Shown here piece after piece: positions 5,701-33,216 of a stretch of DNA of 64,000 bases. A program made the translations under genes and the position numbers. This DNA comes from Chloracidobacterium sp. N (GTDB taxonomy: Bacteria > Acidobacteriota > Blastocatellia > Chloracidobacteriales > Chloracidobacteriaceae). The stretch spans positions 2,137,819 to 2,201,818 of the forward strand of contig NZ_CP072642.1 in NCBI RefSeq assembly GCF_018304765.1, in the 5' to 3' direction. Position 1 is the stretch's first letter, and each line of letters opens with the position of its first letter. The notes under the pieces were generated by a model. The model made no database searches. It saw nothing but the letters and a program-made list of their open reading frames with translations, and was not told the DNA's origin.

Positions 5701-6932
5701 CGAGCACGGCGAGCTACACAGTGCCGACAAGTTGCCCGTTGACGCCGGGCGGCACGTTTACCTTCTCCAACCCGGCGCCGATCACCATTCCGCTTTCGGG
5801 TCCGGCGACGCCTTATCCATCTACCATCAACGTGAGTGGCATTCCTACGGGACATGTGGTCACAAAGGTGACAGTGACGATCAACAACTTCAACCACACC
5901 TGGCCCAGCGACGTGGGGGTGGCCCTGCGGGGTCCGGGCGGTCAGATTTGTGTGCTGTTCAACAACGCTATCGGCGGCTCCGGTGGCGTGACGGGCCGCA
6001 CTTACACGTTTGACCAAGCATTCCCGCCATTGCCAGCGACGGGCTTCCCGCCCAGTGGGACCTATGGCCCGAACAACAATAGTACGACACGGACCTTCGC
6101 GGCCCCGCTGCCATCGCCGCCCTACAACAGCAACCTGAACATCTTCAACGGGTTGTCCGGGGCAAGCGTGAACGGTACGTGGGAACTGTTTGTGCAGGAC
6201 TTCGTCGGTGGTGATGCCGGCAACATCAACGGTGGCTGGTCCATCGCCATCCAGACCGGCACGCTCAACTGCTCCACCACAGCACCCTGCCTGACAAACG
6301 TCAACCCGCAGGTGCAGATGCTGATTTACCCGTCGGCAACCACGGCGCTGTTTGGCTGCCCCGGCTATCCGTTGCAGGCGACGCTGGTTGGGCTGCTGAC
6401 CAACATTGGTGCAGCACCTCTCTCCAACATCGCCATTCAGGTGAAAGGGCTGGGCTTCCCGGACTTCACCAATCCGAACGCCGTCATTCTGGCGTCGCCC
6501 AATCCACACCGGTTGGCGTCGGCGGATGACTACTTCGGGCCGTGTGCCTTCACCGGCGGACAGGCTGGCTCGATTCAGACCACCCTCAATGGGCAGCCGC
6601 CGATTGGCTTTGGTGCGCCAATTGGCTCGCTGGCAGCGGGACAGTCCACCAACATCTTCTTCCGGGTGTACATGCCTTCGACCGGCCCGGTTCGCCTGCT
6701 GGTGGATGTGCTGGCGATTGTCGGCCCGGTTTCAACGACGGAAAGCGTTGAGAACCAGCGGCAGGTGATTCGGACGATGGTGGTTGAAGTGTCCCCTGAT
6801 GCCAACGGCAAAATGGTGGCGCGGGTCATCAGCGATGAGCCTGTGACGCCAAAGGCCACGTCTGGCGAGGATGCCACAGCGACGACGCCTGCCCGGACGC
6901 CGGTTGTGATGGCTCCCGGGCGGCGGCGCTAG
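2748..6932 (+). CDS. Secreted S8 family subtilisin-like serine protease with C-terminal P-domain
   Basis: A 1394-aa exported protease. The ATG at 2748 is preferred over an upstream in-frame TTG at 2730 because AAAGGA lies 9 bp before it. An N-terminal Arg/Lys-rich signal sequence ends near VSSA. The long prodomain-like region runs to about residue 340. The catalytic Asp is at about 360 (VVDVGD), His at 435 (GIGHGTLCAHIIAG) and Ser at 660 (GTSFACPAVAGG). The oxyanion Asn motif AAGNNGPG lies between them. Residues about 1003-1175 match a proprotein-convertase P-domain (HTWPSDVGVALRGPGG, GTWELFVQDFVGGDAG). The last 200 residues look like an Ig-like or CARDB-type module. No TM anchor is evident at the C-terminus, so it is probably secreted or surface-retained. 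The specific substrate is unknown. Confidence 0.9.
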   Translation: MSSTSQRRPQRAKWLAGLVATAALAGLTALPLVRVSSAPPTDTGKGRRFQLAAPYDFTAETHGHKFITRTADARAEAERLGAQLVADYGTFQLYSTDSDNTSAFGNTSGIEMADEFNVVHLNVPINTTSRGAQELAEAGKAAQERLYPGGKRLHVVQFAGPTRPEWFSALQKTGARIINYLPHNAYLVYGDAASLERVSRLGEDARQTGDTTKVTKSFKQWDGPYLAAFKLDPSTAEVALEGTQRYAVQLVADPDTNQATLQLAESFVGKPAIQKYQIADFVNFIVELPSSALMRLAAQEDVISIMPYTEPTLLDERQNQILINSLTGGIPNLSTPYATFLTAAGFPPLNSTFTSAFVVDVGDQMVDSGNSIAGATTPPPGGPPNHTTGLPPTSHFALYLAGNISQPSRLVYAKWESTTSPTPGTNDVRGCGIGHGTLCAHIIAGNVPASLPRTLPHAESASPNFYYGLGVAPFVQIGSSAIFNSGGTFVNPNFNDMLARSYQYGARISSNSWGAPVSGAYNTSSQAYDFLVRDAQRTGSVFPTPGNQEMVIVFAAGNNGPGAQTVGSPGTAKNVITAGGNQNTRNAGENAENMYGSSSRGPCADGRRKPEVLAPATAVSGGVLQVGTPDPTGPGNPDSCVTSAPLPGTTGYYRASTGTSFACPAVAGGAALVRQYFLNNPGPPFNGTAPSPAMTKAYLMNSAQYMTGTGAGDTLWSNNQGMGRMALDRAFDSAPRVLRDQVPADKFTASGQVRTLAVTFPASGPLRITLAWTDVPGATTGSGPRLVNDLDLQVSVGGDTYRGNNFSGANSTTGITFDRLNNAESVFLPAGSYPAGTPVIIQVSAFNIAGDGVPGDTHPLDQDYALVVYNAQTLTGPLVAFAGQTTAELPGPTNSDGDGFFEPCETLQSAITVTNVGTSTATGVNATITSTTPGVTIVNGSASFGSLGPGGSATGNVTFKLLPTFVPGTTVTINVSITFGPGSGSSTASYTVPTSCPLTPGGTFTFSNPAPITIPLSGPATPYPSTINVSGIPTGHVVTKVTVTINNFNHTWPSDVGVALRGPGGQICVLFNNAIGGSGGVTGRTYTFDQAFPPLPATGFPPSGTYGPNNNSTTRTFAAPLPSPPYNSNLNIFNGLSGASVNGTWELFVQDFVGGDAGNINGGWSIAIQTGTLNCSTTAPCLTNVNPQVQMLIYPSATTALFGCPGYPLQATLVGLLTNIGAAPLSNIAIQVKGLGFPDFTNPNAVILASPNPHRLASADDYFGPCAFTGGQAGSIQTTLNGQPPIGFGAPIGSLAAGQSTNIFFRVYMPSTGPVRLLVDVLAIVGPVSTTESVENQRQVIRTMVVEVSPDANGKMVARVISDEPVTPKATSGEDATATTPARTPVVMAPGRRR

Positions 6933-6969
6933 GCTTCAAACCTGGTCGGGGTAGCCTGACCTGATTTCC

Positions 6970-7006
6970 GGCGGTCACGCTCTGATGCGGGCGTGACCGC
7001 CTTTTT
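6970..7006 (+). terminator. Rho-independent terminator after the S8 protease
   Basis: A perfect 11-bp stem, GGCGGTCACGC at 6970-6980 with GCGTGACCGCC at 6991-7001, encloses a 10-nt loop and is followed by TTTTT. It lies 38 bp after the protease stop. Confidence 0.9.
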
Positions 7007-7137
7007 ACTTCCTGCCCGAACGGTTTCCAGGTTTTTCTGCATTTTCTCCAGGCTTGAAAAAATGATGACCTTGGCCGGATGCTTTCCCGCAACAATCAGA
7101 CTCGAAAAGCCAAACCACCGGAACAGGCAATGCAGGC

Positions 7138-7170
7138 AAAAAAAGTGGCGGCGTCACGCGACGCCGCCAC
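7138..7170 (-). terminator. Rho-independent terminator after groEL
   Basis: Read on the minus strand, an 11-bp stem GTGGCGGCGTC / GACGCCGCCAC with a 4-nt loop is followed by seven T residues. It lies just after the groEL stop at 7198. Confidence 0.92.
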
Positions 7171-7197
7171 GGAGGACAACCCCAACGGGACTGGGGA

Positions 7198-8880
<1,683 letters not shown>

Positions 8881-8919
8881 TCAGCTACCAGTGCCGCCGG
8901 CTGTCAGGTTCAGACACTC

Positions 8920-8954
8920 CAACGGGCAAGCCCAGGGTGTGGACTTGCCCGTTG
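8920..8954 (-). repeat. Perfect 11-bp hairpin between groES and groEL
   Basis: CAACGGGCAAG at 8920-8930 pairs perfectly with CTTGCCCGTTG at 8944-8954 around a 13-nt loop. There is no T-tract on either side, so it is not a standard terminator. Its place, 10 bp after the groES stop at 8965, fits an mRNA processing or stability element, or a partial attenuator that adjusts the GroES:GroEL ratio. The function is inferred. Confidence 0.7.
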
Positions 8955-8964
8955 CGTCGAACCA

Positions 8965-9282
8965 TCACTTGGCAGCCGCTTTGCCTTTCCCCTCGATGAT
9001 GCCCAGAATTTCGTCCTCACGCATGATGAGAAACTCTTCACCATCAATCTTGACTTCCGAACCGGAATACTTGCCAAACAGCACGCGGTCACCGACCTGG
9101 ACATCCAGCGGCGTCCGGCTGCCGTCTTCCCGCAGCTTCCCGCTTCCAACGGCAATGACTTCCCCTTCCTGGGGCTTTTCCTTGGCCGTGTCAGGGATGA
9201 TGATGCCGCCACGGACCTGCTCCGTCTCGGCGATGCGTTTGACGATCACGCGGTCGTACAGTGGACGAATCGTCGCAGCCAT
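8965..9282 (-). CDS. groES: Co-chaperonin GroES (10 kDa)
   Basis: The lid of the GroEL folding chamber. It is 105 aa with typical family features: the N-terminal [11 protein letters not shown], the mobile-loop region around [20 protein letters not shown] and the [18 protein letters not shown] segment near the C-terminus. An AAGGAG site precedes the ATG on the minus strand. It is the first gene of the operon and is controlled by the sigma-70-type promoter and CIRCE operator just upstream, so HrcA-mediated heat-shock repression is expected. Confidence 0.97.
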
Positions 9283-25920: not shown

Positions 25921-26232
25921 CCCAAACTCCTTTCCGTGGTGAGGTCCGTGGTGAGGTTCACCGTTTTGCGGCAAACAGGATCAAACGTTGCGCGCCCGTT
26001 GCGCACCGGACGGGCGGCACGTTGCCAGCCCGTTCAACGTCCGGCCGGCTGGTCTGGTTCCCCAACCCATCCGGGTTCATCGGTCACCTCCGGGTTTATC
26101 GGGGCAGGCGGCGTAGGATACAGGCGCCAAACGGCCCACTCCCAGTGCGGCATCAAAAAATGAGCGGGGGAGGCACGGATGCACTCCCCCGCCACAGTTC
26201 AGCCGATGCCGGCGTGCTGCCGTACGGGCGTC
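25921..26232. other. Intergenic region between lipoprotein and Oar-like gene
   Basis: This 312-bp stretch has no credible gene. It contains the lipoprotein ribosome-binding site and a small direct repeat CCGTGGTGAGGT (two copies near 25934-25960). Near the other end is the terminator for the Oar-like gene (26155-26192). Confidence 0.5.
26155..26192 (-). terminator. Rho-independent terminator after the first Oar-like gene
   Basis: On the minus strand a 9-bp stem GCGGGGGAG / CTCCCCCGC with an 11-nt loop is followed by TCA and then TTTTTT. It lies 40 bp after the gene's stop at 26233. Confidence 0.85.
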
Positions 26233-29200
26233 TCAGAAACGGAAGCGACCACTGAGGGTAAGCGTCCGGCGGCCCCAGCCGTTGAGGTTACGTCCAAAGT
26301 CGGGGCTGTTCATGTTGTTGACCGGGATACCGTAGAAATCCTGGTTGAAGACGTTGAAGTAGTCGGCGCGCAGCTCGAACGTGTACCGCTCCAGCAGTTT
26401 GATCCGCTTGAGCAGGCTCAGGTTGGTGTTGTTGAACGGTTCGGCCCGCAGTGCGTTACGTGGCGCCGTGCCGTTCCCGACCGTGTTGATGAGCGGGAAG
26501 CCAGTCGGGCCAACGACCGGCAGGAAGAACTGCCCGGTCGTGCGGGGATTGCTGAACGTCCGCAGGTTGCGGGTGACGGGGTCAAGCGTGAACGTCCCGT
26601 TCGGGTTGAAGTTCGGGCGGTCGCCGCCAGCACCATTCCCGTTGGTATCCACGCCGGTCACGATGGTGAAGGGTTGGCCGGACTGGCGCTCGACCACCCC
26701 GGAGAGCTGCCACCCCCCGAAGAAGTATTCCGTCCACTTCGGCGCGCTCCTGAGTCACGGAATCTCATACACGAAGTTGAAGACGACCCGGTGCGGCCGG
26801 TCAAAGGCCGATACCGAACGCTCGCCCCGGCGGATGTTCGTGAAATCCTGGGGCACCTGTGGGCTTGGGCCGGCAATCGCCGCTACGCCCAGCGATTCAT
26901 CGTTGTCACTGATGAGCTTGCTGAAGGTGTAGGCCAGACCAAACTGAAGCCCGTAGCTGAACCGCTTGCGCAGATCAATGTACCCGGCGTTGTAGTTGGC
27001 CCGGGCCGTGGTGGCAATGAGCACCCGCGAGCCCCAGTTCGGATTGAGACGCCGCGCCTGCACGCCCGGTACGGACCGGCCGGCCTGGGCATCCGCAATC
27101 TGCGCCGGCGTCAGCACGGCAAAGTTGGCCTGAAGCTGATTGATGCCGTTGAAGGACCGGCTGCCGGTGTAGCCGACTTCCAGAACGAAGTCACGGAAGA
27201 ACTGCCGCTGGAAGTTGAAGCTGTAGTATTCCGTACGTGGGTTCTGGGCGTCTTCAGGTGTGTTGACATAGGTCGCCAGCGGGTTGAACACCGGCTGCCC
27301 CGTGACCGGAAGCAGGCGGGGATACTGGTCCAGAATGTTGTTCTGCTGCCCGACGACCACGCGCGGGAAGTTACTCGCGTTGACCGTCAGGATGTTGTAA
27401 AACAGCACGTCATACGACATCCCATATCCGCCGCGAAACACCGTCCGGTCGTTGCCCAGCATCGTGGCGATGAAGCCGTCCCCTTCGACCCGTGGATTCC
27501 AGGCAAAACCGATCCGGGGCGCCACGTTGTTGTTGTCGCGCCGGGTTGGGCCCGGCACGCCGACGGACAGGCTCTGCTGGTCGCGCGCTCCGAAAAAGCC
27601 AAACGGCACATCGTTGGTCTCGTAACGGATGCCCAGATTGAGCGTCAGGCTGGGCGTCACGCGCCAGTCATCCTGGAAGAAGTAGAACTGTGACACCTGG
27701 CGCGCATCGAAGCTGGCCGTCTGAAGCGCCTGCTGGAACTGAAACACGTTGTTGTTCAGAAAGTCGGCCAGGTTGTTGAAGGTAAACGTGCCTTTCGAGT
27801 CAAAGGCCGCCGTGTTGTCAAGCTGGATGTAGCGGATGTCGAAACCCGCTTTCAGCGTGTGGTTGCCCAGTTGCTTAGTCAGCAGGTTCTGAAACTGAAA
27901 GCTGTTCTGGATGCGCCCCTGGGGAAAGTTCGACGCGCCACCAATGGTGAACGCCCCGCCGATGGTCGTCGTCGGGGTCTGGGGGTCATTTTCCGGGAAA
28001 CCCAGATTGCGCCGGATGTAGCTGAAGCGAAACTCGTTGAGCAGCGTCGGGGAAAACGTGTGCGTGTCACTGACCGCCAGGTTCTGGTCGCGGATGTTCT
28101 GCGCCCCGGCGAAACGCGGACCGAACTGCAGGTTGCTCACCACGTTCGGCTGCTTGCTGTCGGTGAAGATGTAGCGGCCGGTCAGCCGATTGGACGCGCT
28201 GAACTGGTGATCGCCGCGCACGACGAAGTTGTATTCATCGGCCGGCTGCGTGATGGGTAACTGGACGATCCCGGTCTGAATCGGCACGCCGTTGATGTTG
28301 ATGGTCGAGAGGTTGGTGAAGCGCGGGTTGAGCGCGTACACATCCTGCAGGAAGCGGATGGAGTCCAGCATTGCCTGCCGGCTGGCCGCCGTCTGCGCCG
28401 GATTGGCGCCGCTCGCCGGGCGCAGCGGCACGGTGCTGAGGGCGGCAAAGCCTGTCTGGGTGGGAATGCGGGTCTGCGGGCCAAGCAACTGCCCGGTACG
28501 GGTCAGGTTGGCCTGGAAAAAGCCATAGAAGAACGTCTTGTCGCGGATGACCCGCCCCCCAAAGTCGCCTCCGACCTGGTTGGTGTTGAAACGCGGCTGA
28601 CTCCTCAGACCACGCTGTTTTTCCAGATTGTTCAGTGTGTTGAGGCCGCTGCCGAGGTAATAAATGAACGCCTGCCCGTGAAACTCATTCGTTCCCGACT
28701 TGGTGGTGACGTTGATTTGCCCACCGCTGTTGCGCCCAAACTCCGCATTGTACGGATTGGTTTGAATCTGGAACTCCTGAACGGCTTCCGGGGCCAGCCC
28801 GATGGTGGGAATCGTCACCGAGACATCGTTGTTGTCCGAGCCGTCAATCGTGAAGTTGTTGTTGCGGGCGCGCTGACCGTTGACGCTGATCCCGCTCGAA
28901 CCTGGCGCCCGGAACGCATTGGGCGACAGCACCGCCAGGTTGTTGATGTTACGTCCGGCGGAGAGGGGCAGTTCCACGACCCGGCGTGCCTCGAAAGTGG
29001 CGCCGACGGTTGGGGAGTTGCGGTTCAGCGCCACGATGCTGTCGGCGCTGATGGTGACGGTATCGGCCTGTTCGCCAACCTCCAGCGTGATATTGAAGCC
29101 GGTGTCATTGGCCGAAACGACGCGAATATCCGTATATTCGCTCCGCTTGAAGCCTTCCTTTTCGACGACGACCCGATAGATGCCGGGGTCAAGGGCCGCG

Positions 29201-29442
29201 ACGCGGTAGCTGCCGGAGTCATTCGTCGTGGTTTCCCGCGCCTGATTAGTGGCCTGATTCGTGACGACGACGCGCGCCCCAACCACGGCGGCGCCGGTCT
29301 GGTCCGTGACGGTGCCGGTCATGGCGCTCCGGGTAAGCTGTCCCCAGCCCACCGCCGTCAGTCCGACCATCCACAACAGAGAAAAGCTCAGGATGAGCCG
29401 GTGGCGATACCGTCCGCTCATCCATCCCAGGCAATGCAACAT
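26233..29442 (-). pseudogene. Oar-like TonB-dependent receptor interrupted by an in-frame TGA
   Basis: One outer-membrane receptor gene of about 1069 codons, split by TGA at 26755-26757. The part before the stop has 895 residues. It has a signal peptide and a carboxypeptidase-regulatory domain (about 38-115: TGTVTDQTGAAVVGARVVVT). A plug region follows (NGQRARNNNFTIDGSDNNDV, NAEFGRNSGGQINVTTKSGT), then most of the barrel, ending RVVFNFVYEIP. The same frame continues LRSAPKWTEYFFGGWQLSG and runs to a typical barrel end GRFRF. The total length matches the neighbouring 1084-aa paralogue. GAGGAAA precedes the ATG. It is a pseudogene, a readthrough product or a sequencing error; reading frame is otherwise intact. 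Confidence 0.85.
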
Positions 29443-29961
29443 ACAAATTTCCTCAACTTACATAGGCTGGCGTCCCCGCGCCGGTGATGGCCTGGAACGC
29501 CTGTTGGTTCCTGAAGTTAGGCAAATGCTGCGCCAGCCCGGCTGAACCCCGCGCCCGCCAGACCCGCCAGCAGATAAAAAGTGCTTTTCCGGGTTTGGTT
29601 TACCCATACCAGCCCAAATTCCCGCCCCTCGCCTACGGGTCCGGTTTTCCTGCCTGGCGTCTTCGGGCGGCAGCCCTGCTATCCAAAAAGTGCAATGTCA
29701 TTCAAAAAAATGAAGCATGGTTGAAAAAAATACGGATTGACACCCGTGAAAACCGGACGTACGCCCCGTGCGATGTGCCGGTACACCGTCTGCTATGGTG
29801 TTATCTGGCAACTGGATCAGTGGTGACAAGTGACTGGCTGGCGGCGTTTGTCAGATTTCTGGCACAGATTTTGCTACCTATAACCAGAACAGCTTCTCAT
29901 AAGCTTGAGGGCGCACCTCAGCGCCCTCTGCGATCTTTTCTGAATAAGAGAGGTAATCCCC
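29443..29961. promoter_or_regulatory. Divergent promoter region between two Oar-like genes
   Basis: This 519-bp spacer has no credible gene. It serves two divergent receptor genes. It contains a hairpin GAGGGCGC-acctca-GCGCCCTC at 29907-29928 and a ribosome-binding site GAGAGG before the ATG at 29962. A TTGACA at 29737-29742 lies in an A-rich stretch, but I could not pair it with a convincing -10 box. Confidence 0.45.
29907..29928 (+). repeat. 8-bp hairpin in the leader of the second Oar-like gene
   Basis: GAGGGCGC pairs with GCGCCCTC around a 6-nt loop and is followed by a moderately T-rich stretch (ATCTTTTC). It lies 33 bp upstream of the start codon, so it could be a leader structure or weak attenuator. 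No T-tract of terminator quality follows. Confidence 0.5.
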
Positions 29962-32900
29962 ATGCACGTACAGAAGGCAAACTCTGTGCGGTCCACGCGG
30001 CACGGGTGGTACGCCGGTATCCGGTGCCTGCTGGTCGGTCTGGTCCTTGTGGGACTGACCAACGTGGCAGCCATCGCGCAAACCATCTACGGCAACATCT
30101 CCGGGCGGGTGACCGACCAGACGGGCGCGGCCATTGTCGGCGCGCGCATCGAGGTCAAGAACATGGACACCGGAGAAACCCGTGAAGTCGTCAGCGGCAG
30201 CGACGGCACCTACACCGTGCGCTCCCTGCCCGGCGGGCGGTATGCTGTCCGCATCTCGGCCGACTCCTTCGAGACCCTTGTCCGTGAGCAAATCAACGTC
30301 ACGGCGGCGCGGGACGCCATCGTGGATGCCGAACTCAAGGCTGGCAGCAGCCAGGAAGTCATCACGGTGACAGGTGAGGCCACCCTCATCGAGACGACCC
30401 GCAGCCAGGTGAGCAAGGAAGTGGATTCACGCCGGATTCTGCAACTGCCCGGGCGCAACACGCTCAATGGGCTGGCGCTGCTGCAACCCGGTGTCGTCAA
30501 CAACCAGAACGGGCGGCCCGGTTCCGGTTTTGCTGTCAATGGTGCCCGGACCCGCTCCAACAACTTCCTCATTGACGGCACGCAGAACAATGACCCGTCG
30601 CTTTCGATTCCGGTGCAGAATCTTCCCCCGGAAGCCTTGGCGGAGTTTCAGATCATCACCAACAACTTTTCGGCTGAGTTCGGGCGCAACGGCGGTGCCA
30701 TCGTGCAGCAGATCACCCGTTCGGGAACCAACGAATTCAGCGGTATCGCGCACTACACCTGGGAAGGCAACGGGCTGAATGCCCTCACCACAGCCCAGCA
30801 GCGTACGTTCAGCGCCGCCCGGGCCCAGGGCTTCAGTGAAAAGGAGTCCCTGCGCCGGGCGCGCGCCGTCAACGTGACGAACATCTGGGGCGGCACATTC
30901 GGCGGGCCCATCAAGAAAGACAAGATTTTCTTCTTCACCAGCTTTGACCGGAATACGTTCCGCACCACAGCCGTGCCGATTACCGTGGCGCTGGCGCCGT
31001 CGGGCATTGCGGCCCTTCAGGCCTATGCCGCAGCCAATCCGACCGGTCCCAATGCCCTGGCGCCCGGCGCGCTGACCTTCCTGACCAACACGTTCCCTGT
31101 TGCCAACGACCCGACGCCACGTGGCACCATCACCGTCCGGCGGCCGTCAGACAACGCCATCGTGGCGACCATACCGGTGCAGCAGTTCAACCGGGCGCTG
31201 ACCGGCAGTCTGCCCTTCGGAACGAGTTTCTGGCGGATTCTCGTCAAAGGCGACATCAACCTGACCACCAATGACCGCTTCTCGCTGCGGTATCTGCAGG
31301 ACCGCAGCCGCAACCCCGGCGCCCCCACAGCCATTGCCGGCAACGAAACCGGCACGAACGTGGACAACTACAACGGCGCGGTGAACTACATCCGTACGTT
31401 CAGCCCGCGGGTTGTCAACGAGTTCCGTTTCAGCTTCGTGGACCGGGCACTCAACTTTCCTGAGAACTTACCGCCAGCCATCACGATTGGCGGCTTCAAC
31501 TCGGTTGGCAACGCCAACTTCCCGCAGTTCCGCAACAGCCGCGTCATCGAGTTCACCGACGCCCTGACCTGGACCTTCTCCAAGCACACGCTGAAGTTCG
31601 GCGGCAGCTACAACCGCATCAACCTCGATTCGTTCTTTGCCCCCAACTTCCGCGGGACGGTCTCCTATGGCTCGCTTTCGGACCTGCTCTTTGACCGGAA
31701 TGCCAGCTTCTCCCAGTATGCCGGCACGGGTCTCGTCCCGGCGCGCGTCAATGAAATGGGCGTCTTCGTCCAGGATGATTACCGCATCCTGCCGTCGCTG
31801 ACGCTCAATCTGGGCCTGCGTTACGAGTATGTCTCCGCGCCCTTCGGCTTCTTCTCGAACGCCGAGCCGGACATCAACAACTTTGCTCCGCGCGTCGGTT
31901 TTGCCTGGAACCCACGGGTGGAAGGCGATGGGTTCATCGCCACGATGCTGGGGAAAGACAAGACCGTGATTCGCGGCGGCTATGGCATCTCCTACGACCA
32001 GATTTTCCTCAACATTCTGCTCAACAACTCCCGCAACTTCCCACGCGGCGTCAACGTGGCCATCGGGCCCATCAGCGGGCAGCGGTTGTACGTTGCGGGC
32101 AACCGTCCGGCTCCGCCGACGCCCTCGCAATTCACGGGCGATCCCAACCTGCTGCCGGTGCGGCTGTATTCGCCCAACAAGCGCGTGGCACTGCCCTACC
32201 AGCAGTCGTTCAACTTTGGCTTTGAGCGGCAACTGTGGAATGACTACGTGTTCAAGATGTTCTACATCGGCTCACGTGGGTTGAAGCTGGTGCGGGAAGT
32301 CGAAAGCAACCTTGGCTTCAACATCACCGCCATCAACAACAACCCGTCCTTCTACGCCAACATCCTGCCGCAGTTGCAGCCGGTACGGAATGCGGCCGGA
32401 CAAATCACGGCGTTTCGGCGCGACCCGGCGCGGGGCTCCATCCTGATTGGGGACGGGCTGGCCAGTTCGTGGTATCACTCCCTGCAGCTCACGCTGGGCA
32501 AGCGGTTCCGCAACGGCATCCAGTATGAACTCAACTACACGTGGAGTGCGTTCATCAACGACAGTGACGACATCCTGGGCGGTCAGACCAACTCCACGCT
32601 GCCGGCCAACCCGCTCAACTTCCGTCAGGATCGCGCGCGCTCCGGTCTCGACCAGCCCCACCGGTTCGTGGCGAACTACACGTTTGAGATTCCCCGGATC
32701 AGCATCTCCAATCCGTTCTTCGACCGTCTCATCAACGGCTGGGCGATGTCCGGTGTCTCCACCTTTTCCTCGGGCACGCCGTTCAGCGTCCTGAACGCCT
32801 TCAATGCCCTGGGCATTCTGCCGGGTCAGATTTCGACGGTGGAACTGTCGCAGCGCGTCAGCATCAATCCGGCCGGACAGCCCGGCACAGCCACTGGCTT

Positions 32901-33216
32901 CCCCGGTGTCACCAATCCGTTCTACGTGGCCAACCCGGTCAACTCCGGCATCAACGGCAACGCCGGCCGCAACATTCTCCGCACCGGCGGTGTGGCGAGC
33001 ACCGACTTTGCTTTCGTCAAACGGTTCCGCACCTTTGGCGAACGGCAGGCCCTCGAAGTGCGCTGGGAAGTCTTCAACGTCTTCAACCGGCGGAACTTCA
33101 CGGTCATTCCGTCCAACACGGTGAACAATGCCACCAACCCGGCGCTGTTCCTCAACCTTGGGCAGACCAACGTTGGCGGCCGGAGCATGACCTTCACCGC
33201 GCGGTACATCTTCTGA
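29962..33216 (+). CDS. Oar-like TonB-dependent outer-membrane receptor
   Basis: A 1084-aa outer-membrane protein. It has a signal peptide ending near AAIAQ (about 39). A carboxypeptidase-regulatory-like domain spans about 45-125 (ISGRVTDQTGAAIVGARIEV). A plug domain follows at about 140-255 (LPGRNTLNGLALLQPGV, RSNNFLIDGTQNNDPSL, FSAEFGRNGGAIVQQ). The long barrel ends in ARYIF with terminal Phe, the usual BAM signal. The C-terminal half contains family motifs such as LRYEYVSAPFGFF, PRVGFAWNPRVEGDGFI and RGGYGISYDQIF. These proteins are thought to import peptides or polysaccharides or to mediate adhesion; the substrate is unknown. It is closely related in layout to the interrupted gene upstream, and is followed by a terminator. 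Confidence 0.9.
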   Translation: MHVQKANSVRSTRHGWYAGIRCLLVGLVLVGLTNVAAIAQTIYGNISGRVTDQTGAAIVGARIEVKNMDTGETREVVSGSDGTYTVRSLPGGRYAVRISADSFETLVREQINVTAARDAIVDAELKAGSSQEVITVTGEATLIETTRSQVSKEVDSRRILQLPGRNTLNGLALLQPGVVNNQNGRPGSGFAVNGARTRSNNFLIDGTQNNDPSLSIPVQNLPPEALAEFQIITNNFSAEFGRNGGAIVQQITRSGTNEFSGIAHYTWEGNGLNALTTAQQRTFSAARAQGFSEKESLRRARAVNVTNIWGGTFGGPIKKDKIFFFTSFDRNTFRTTAVPITVALAPSGIAALQAYAAANPTGPNALAPGALTFLTNTFPVANDPTPRGTITVRRPSDNAIVATIPVQQFNRALTGSLPFGTSFWRILVKGDINLTTNDRFSLRYLQDRSRNPGAPTAIAGNETGTNVDNYNGAVNYIRTFSPRVVNEFRFSFVDRALNFPENLPPAITIGGFNSVGNANFPQFRNSRVIEFTDALTWTFSKHTLKFGGSYNRINLDSFFAPNFRGTVSYGSLSDLLFDRNASFSQYAGTGLVPARVNEMGVFVQDDYRILPSLTLNLGLRYEYVSAPFGFFSNAEPDINNFAPRVGFAWNPRVEGDGFIATMLGKDKTVIRGGYGISYDQIFLNILLNNSRNFPRGVNVAIGPISGQRLYVAGNRPAPPTPSQFTGDPNLLPVRLYSPNKRVALPYQQSFNFGFERQLWNDYVFKMFYIGSRGLKLVREVESNLGFNITAINNNPSFYANILPQLQPVRNAAGQITAFRRDPARGSILIGDGLASSWYHSLQLTLGKRFRNGIQYELNYTWSAFINDSDDILGGQTNSTLPANPLNFRQDRARSGLDQPHRFVANYTFEIPRISISNPFFDRLINGWAMSGVSTFSSGTPFSVLNAFNALGILPGQISTVELSQRVSINPAGQPGTATGFPGVTNPFYVANPVNSGINGNAGRNILRTGGVASTDFAFVKRFRTFGERQALEVRWEVFNVFNRRNFTVIPSNTVNNATNPALFLNLGQTNVGGRSMTFTARYIF

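Follow-up and report, generated by a model that had tools for sequence, protein, structure and literature searches.

The Oar subclass of TonB-dependent transporters, with Oar of Myxococcus xanthus, is described as having an N-terminal PF13620 domain ahead of a TonB-receptor-like barrel, which is 22-stranded and lies in the outer membrane, and a Plug domain (PF07715) with a TonB box (PMC6434023). The Oar-like receptor gene oar1 of the hot-spring phototroph Chloracidobacterium sp. N shares the N-terminal PF13620 domain and has a TonB-receptor-like barrel behind it. Its Plug region aligns with the family but gives no PF07715 match at E 0.01, whereas the neighboring oar2 matches above threshold (3.9e-08). 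It differs from the subclass in that its barrel is cut short of the last strands. The gene lies in the window, the 64,000-nucleotide stretch of contig NZ_CP072642.1 that was analyzed, and its parts and relatives there are listed below. Strain N is G000, G001 to G006 are the six other genomes of the genus that were searched, and L001 is an orthologue from a metagenome-assembled genome (MAG).

26233..29442, minus strand: oar1, Oar-like receptor gene; 1069 codons plus a terminal TGA if read through, with one in-frame TGA
29080..29322, minus strand: PF13620 CarboxypepD_reg domain, residues 41-121, E 1.4e-21
26758..29442, minus strand: oar1 upstream part, 895 codons; CarboxypepD_reg and PF25183 positions 1-678 of 838
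26755..26757, minus strand: premature TGA, codon 896, followed by C; G005 and G004 have TGG, L001 has Trp
26236..26754, minus strand: oar1 downstream part, 173 codons in the same frame; barrel end (PF25183 688-827), closing with a strand whose last residue is F
29962..33216, plus strand: oar2, divergent neighbor, open frame of 1084 aa
33449..37285, plus strand: oar3, third family member, open frame of 1278 aa

An earlier note on this DNA had described a point nonsense change, not a frameshift, in an otherwise intact receptor gene, and this description holds. The minus-strand TGA occupies 26757..26755, exactly where it had been placed, and is followed by C; the combined length of about 1069 codons and the 1084 aa of the neighbor are both confirmed by frame reading. 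The gene runs through 895 codons, the TGA, 173 codons and the terminal TGA in a single frame with no other stop, and the two halves match PF25183 consecutively, as expected for contiguous receptor sequence on either side. A frameshift at the site is ruled out by the continuous frame, and orthologues carry TGG or Trp at the same position, so that the case the note had named against itself, homologues all ending at this stop, is false. That the gene is otherwise intact is borne out by the G005 orthologue, which is free of stops and 90% identical over residues 10-1069. A search of the strain N genome (two contigs, 3,715,176 bases) found one TGA inside oar1 and 48 other matches to what is a large Oar-like family, some of them pieces of one gene; none of these 48 has an in-frame stop. 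A promoter scan of 26000-30000 returned no sigma-70-like promoter (0.7 expected). By eye, no strong ribosome-binding site precedes the GTG at 26697, and for that reason we do not argue for a restart there.

In Pfam, the CarboxypepD_reg domain (residues 41-121) stands ahead of the barrel, and the PF25183 barrel model matches oar1 at E 5.7e-114. A sequence search of solved structures gave no match at E 0.01. The structure predicted for the read-through protein from 17 sequences is of low confidence (mean pLDDT 52.1). In this low-confidence model, the stop falls just past a strand at residues 882-893, and four longer strands remain beyond it, at 911-920, 1003-1015, 1021-1029 and 1060-1068. The 50 PDB matches listed for the model, of 859 at E up to 10, have TM scores by query of only 0.31-0.36; we take all 50 to be TonB-dependent receptors or transporters. 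The C-terminal strand of a barrel is normally recognized by the barrel assembly machinery. Termination at codon 896 removes the last 173 residues with the barrel end, and, if the predicted strands are followed, the loss of strands including the C-terminal one should abolish the barrel and make the truncated product non-functional.

Among the six other genomes of the genus, an uninterrupted oar1 was found in G005 only. Codon 896 is TGG in G005 and G004, and Trp in L001, which comes from a MAG labeled Gammaproteobacteria and is ~60% identical; the stop is found in strain N alone among the four orthologous copies read (G000, G005, G004 and L001). Since G005 and G004 have TGG and L001 has Trp, the ancestral codon was Trp, and a single TGG-to-TGA transition made the stop. 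L001 (JAJVHZ010000116.1) is the closest relative of oar1 seen outside the genus, and its Gammaproteobacteria label appears doubtful. Another family member with one in-frame TGA was seen at G022:C11:13554-15944, in a genome of the same class.

In the rest of the genus, the gene is broken, reduced or not found. The G004 gene carries five frameshifting indels (near codons 189, 255, 305, 344 and 410) and three stops (codons 16, 24 and 67). In G001, oar1 is replaced by ~250 bp between collinear flanks that are 92.8% and 96.8% identical, and this short stretch holds, in order, two scraps matching window positions 27697-27741 and 28463-28549. Because these two collinear scraps sit between matching flanks, G001 evidently once had oar1 and has since erased it. 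G003 keeps 360 bp of the oar1 3' end near its oar2, at 78% identity and split over two frames, whereas G002 (85% complete) and G006 showed neither an orthologue nor a scrap. Orthologues of oar2 were seen in the compared stretches of five of the six genomes, but not in the G002 stretch. Taken as they stand in these genomes, the copies indicate that oar1 is being lost across the genus, having been broken or deleted in other lineages. Such losses show that the receptor is dispensable in those lineages but do not show it for strain N, which may be doing without it as well.

Two side observations concern these copies. First, all eight lesions of the G004 orthologue (L002 ~5987-9113) lie within the first 410 of its 1069 codons, and the remainder is one open frame; the probability of such clustering under an even spread is ~0.0005, and candidate explanations are decay that proceeded unevenly, recombination, or poor MAG sequence in this part. 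Second, oar1 lies ~200 kb away from oar2 in G005, and oar1, oar2 and the bioB-side genes are ordered differently between species (G005 L068 and L070; G004 L069 and L076), the receptor genes having moved relative to their neighbors.

We consider it likely that a recent nonsense mutation, Trp to TGA at codon 896, has knocked out or is in the course of knocking out one Oar-like TonB-dependent receptor that is dispensable in the genus. A single-base mutation would have turned the Trp codon into TGA; termination would leave 895 residues that lack the last four longer predicted strands and the C-terminal strand; the truncated product would fail to assemble and then be degraded; and the loss would be tolerated, because other lineages broke or deleted oar1 and the receptor is probably dispensable in the genus. 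A recent pseudogene was one of several alternatives in the earlier note, and it is the best supported of them by the ancestral Trp, the losses in relatives and the limited time that the tail can have spent without selection.

Alternatively, the cell may have an intact gene, and the TGA may have entered the strain N record through faulty sequencing or assembly. The species is sampled by one genome, strain N, and the TGA is read in that genome alone; Canu 1.8 and Circlator were used to assemble its PacBio Sequel reads, and the methods section of the genome paper names no polishing (PMC8245765). Strain N falls into one cluster with strains 2, A, E and S, within which ANI is ~99.6-99.9% (PMC8245765), and strain E is the proposed type of C. 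aggregatum (PMC12816986), a grouping by which strain N would itself be C. aggregatum. The lesion, however, is a substitution. Errors left by PacBio-type reads are mostly small insertions or deletions, and a real lesion is plausible given the losses in relatives. As a control, open reading frames (ORFs) of G001 were read in ~400 kb of G000, with filters for third-position bias, coverage of at least 70% and identity of at least 75%, which may drop badly broken genes. Five of 235 coding-like ORF pairs were flagged; on inspection by eye, four of them are interrupted upstream of where the true start probably lies and the fifth is an antisense ORF, which leaves no lesion inside a true gene among the five. 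An unfiltered version of the control (28 of 266 broken) was dropped, many of its ORFs being antisense or extended upstream. In the reverse reading, of G000 ORFs in G001, six of 229 coding-like pairs were flagged, one with three stops, and some of these may be true G001 lesions. The control speaks for a sound consensus in strain N, short of proof for the single TGA base, and we regard a sequencing error as unlikely.

If the nonsense mutation is real, the codons behind it carry information on its age. Pairwise dN/dS, which is rough at a dS of ~0.8-1.2, is 0.060 for codons 897-1069 between strain N and G005 and 0.066 between strain N and G004; the corresponding values for codons 40-895 are 0.044 and 0.065. 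By these ratios, the 173 codons past the stop bear the imprint of purifying selection. Strain N has 12 nonsynonymous and 26 synonymous changes of its own past the stop, and 23 nonsynonymous and 73 synonymous ones in codons 411-895. The point estimates lean slightly toward relaxation in the strain N tail, and the relaxation is not significant against codons 411-895 (Fisher p 0.39) or when the tails on the other two branches serve as the reference (p 0.25). As a rough bound, the tail has been without selection for 5-12% of the branch (medians) and for at most ~19-32% (95% limits). The lack of long relaxation in the tail is expected of a recent pseudogene; what can be held against one is that the tail is not measurably decayed, a state that fits youth and continued translation alike. 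The tail data are thus consistent with a stop that is young or a tail that is still translated.

Continued translation would come about if the sole tRNA-Trp misread UGA at a low rate and inserted the ancestral Trp, giving a little full-length receptor, with the stop as an attenuator. The lost residue is the one expected from near-cognate misreading of UGA by tRNA-Trp, the tail past the stop is still constrained, and genes that combine an in-frame stop with a dN/dS below 1 are described as widespread in bacteria (PMC7918605). In addition, the only tRNA-Trp found in strain N (anticodon CCA) has A24, the state made in E. coli by the G24A change, which is shown to facilitate UGA readthrough (PMC13092985). 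The tRNA-Trp loci (L084:1503-1578 and L168-L175) have A at position 24, which was assigned manually from the cloverleaf in E. coli tRNA numbering. Nine genomes were searched, and all eight with a full-length match have A24 (G002 has none; the count leaves out a second, partial G007 match). This very distribution weakens the case, since A24 is present in seven genomes besides strain N. Because G005 and G004 have A24 and yet keep TGG at codon 896, A24 is no adaptation to the oar1 stop. The anticodon stem of the strain N tRNA-Trp is normal, with five pairs, and a four-pair stem was rejected; the G007 tRNA-Trp (L175) does have a four-pair stem, its top pair being T-T. Constraint on the tail is expected regardless if the stop is young, and the TGA is not conserved among relatives, being present in one of the four orthologous copies.

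The context of the stop bears on the same question. The earlier note had taken the C after TGA to favor readthrough; this stands for yeast, where +4C is tied to readthrough, and fails for E. coli, where UGA misreading by tRNA-Trp is tied to +4A and not +4C, according to the introduction of PMC5289835. Of 186 sampled strain N genes, 35 end in TGA-C, more than in any other stop tetranucleotide, and 32 in TGA-A, the next in rank, so the context is not special in this genome. TGA ends 108 of the 186 sampled genes, and from these counts TGA-C should terminate well enough. The genetic code is normal in strain N. Genome-wide reassignment of UGA to Trp was rejected, with RF2 present over its cut-off, TGA ending most sampled genes and the 48 other family matches free of stops. 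Readthrough of the oar1 stop by tRNA-Trp is accordingly improbable, and we put very little weight on the fuller version, in which oar1 tolerates the TGA as a leaky Trp codon, the genus-wide A24 tRNA-Trp reads it at a low rate, and the stop attenuates expression and so maintains selection on the tail.

A UGA codon may also specify selenocysteine, and Chloracidobacterium has a selenocysteine system, with tRNA-Sec in G000 and G001 and with SelB and SelD in G000:

G000:C1:1571976-1572069 (L077, L125) and G001 L126:7326-7420: tRNA-Sec genes
G000 C1:981414-983285: SelB
G000 C2:42097-43020: SelD, a frame without internal stop

The tRNA-Sec of strain N was found by both Rfam and ARAGORN, and SelB and SelD are over their cut-offs, so UGA can be read as selenocysteine in this cell. 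The residue at codon 896 is, however, Trp and not Cys or Sec in all three other orthologues. Around and past the UGA, the predicted fold has no clear gain in stability over its shuffles (z -1.60; 12 of 200 at least as stable), and fold prediction does not agree between orthologues, as seen with the G005 and G004 sequences. The ancestral Trp and the unremarkable fold disfavor selenocysteine at codon 896, and we give this explanation practically no credence.

Reversible switching of the receptor, whether driven by a repeat or by recombination with a paralogue, has the large family of paralogues in its favor and was raised in the earlier note as phase-like silencing. That suggestion finds no footing here. 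A single base is changed, inspection by eye showed no simple repeat at the site, and around codons 850-940 oar1 shares no word of at least 16 bases with any of 19 tested paralogue loci, which are the top-ranking own-genome family matches, so that none of the 19 qualifies as a recombination donor. We regard switching as exceedingly improbable.

The recent nonsense mutation has little significance alone, being a textbook early-stage pseudogene. What it adds is a view of stepwise loss in one genus, where copies of the same receptor gene range from intact through a single stop and multiple breaks to scraps. The combination of a Trp-to-UGA lesion and an A24 tRNA-Trp in the same cell also makes oar1 a fair place to test natural UGA readthrough.

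Set beside the in-frame stops of Belinky et al. 2021 (PMC7918605), oar1 shares one nonsense codon in an otherwise open gene and a low dN/dS after it; the focus described there is on stops common to orthologues of at least two species, whereas the oar1 stop is in one genome. We found no feature that distinguishes oar1 from an ordinary nonsense pseudogene of a dispensable paralogue, with which it shares a single stop, one intact orthologue, and broken, remnant or deleted copies elsewhere.
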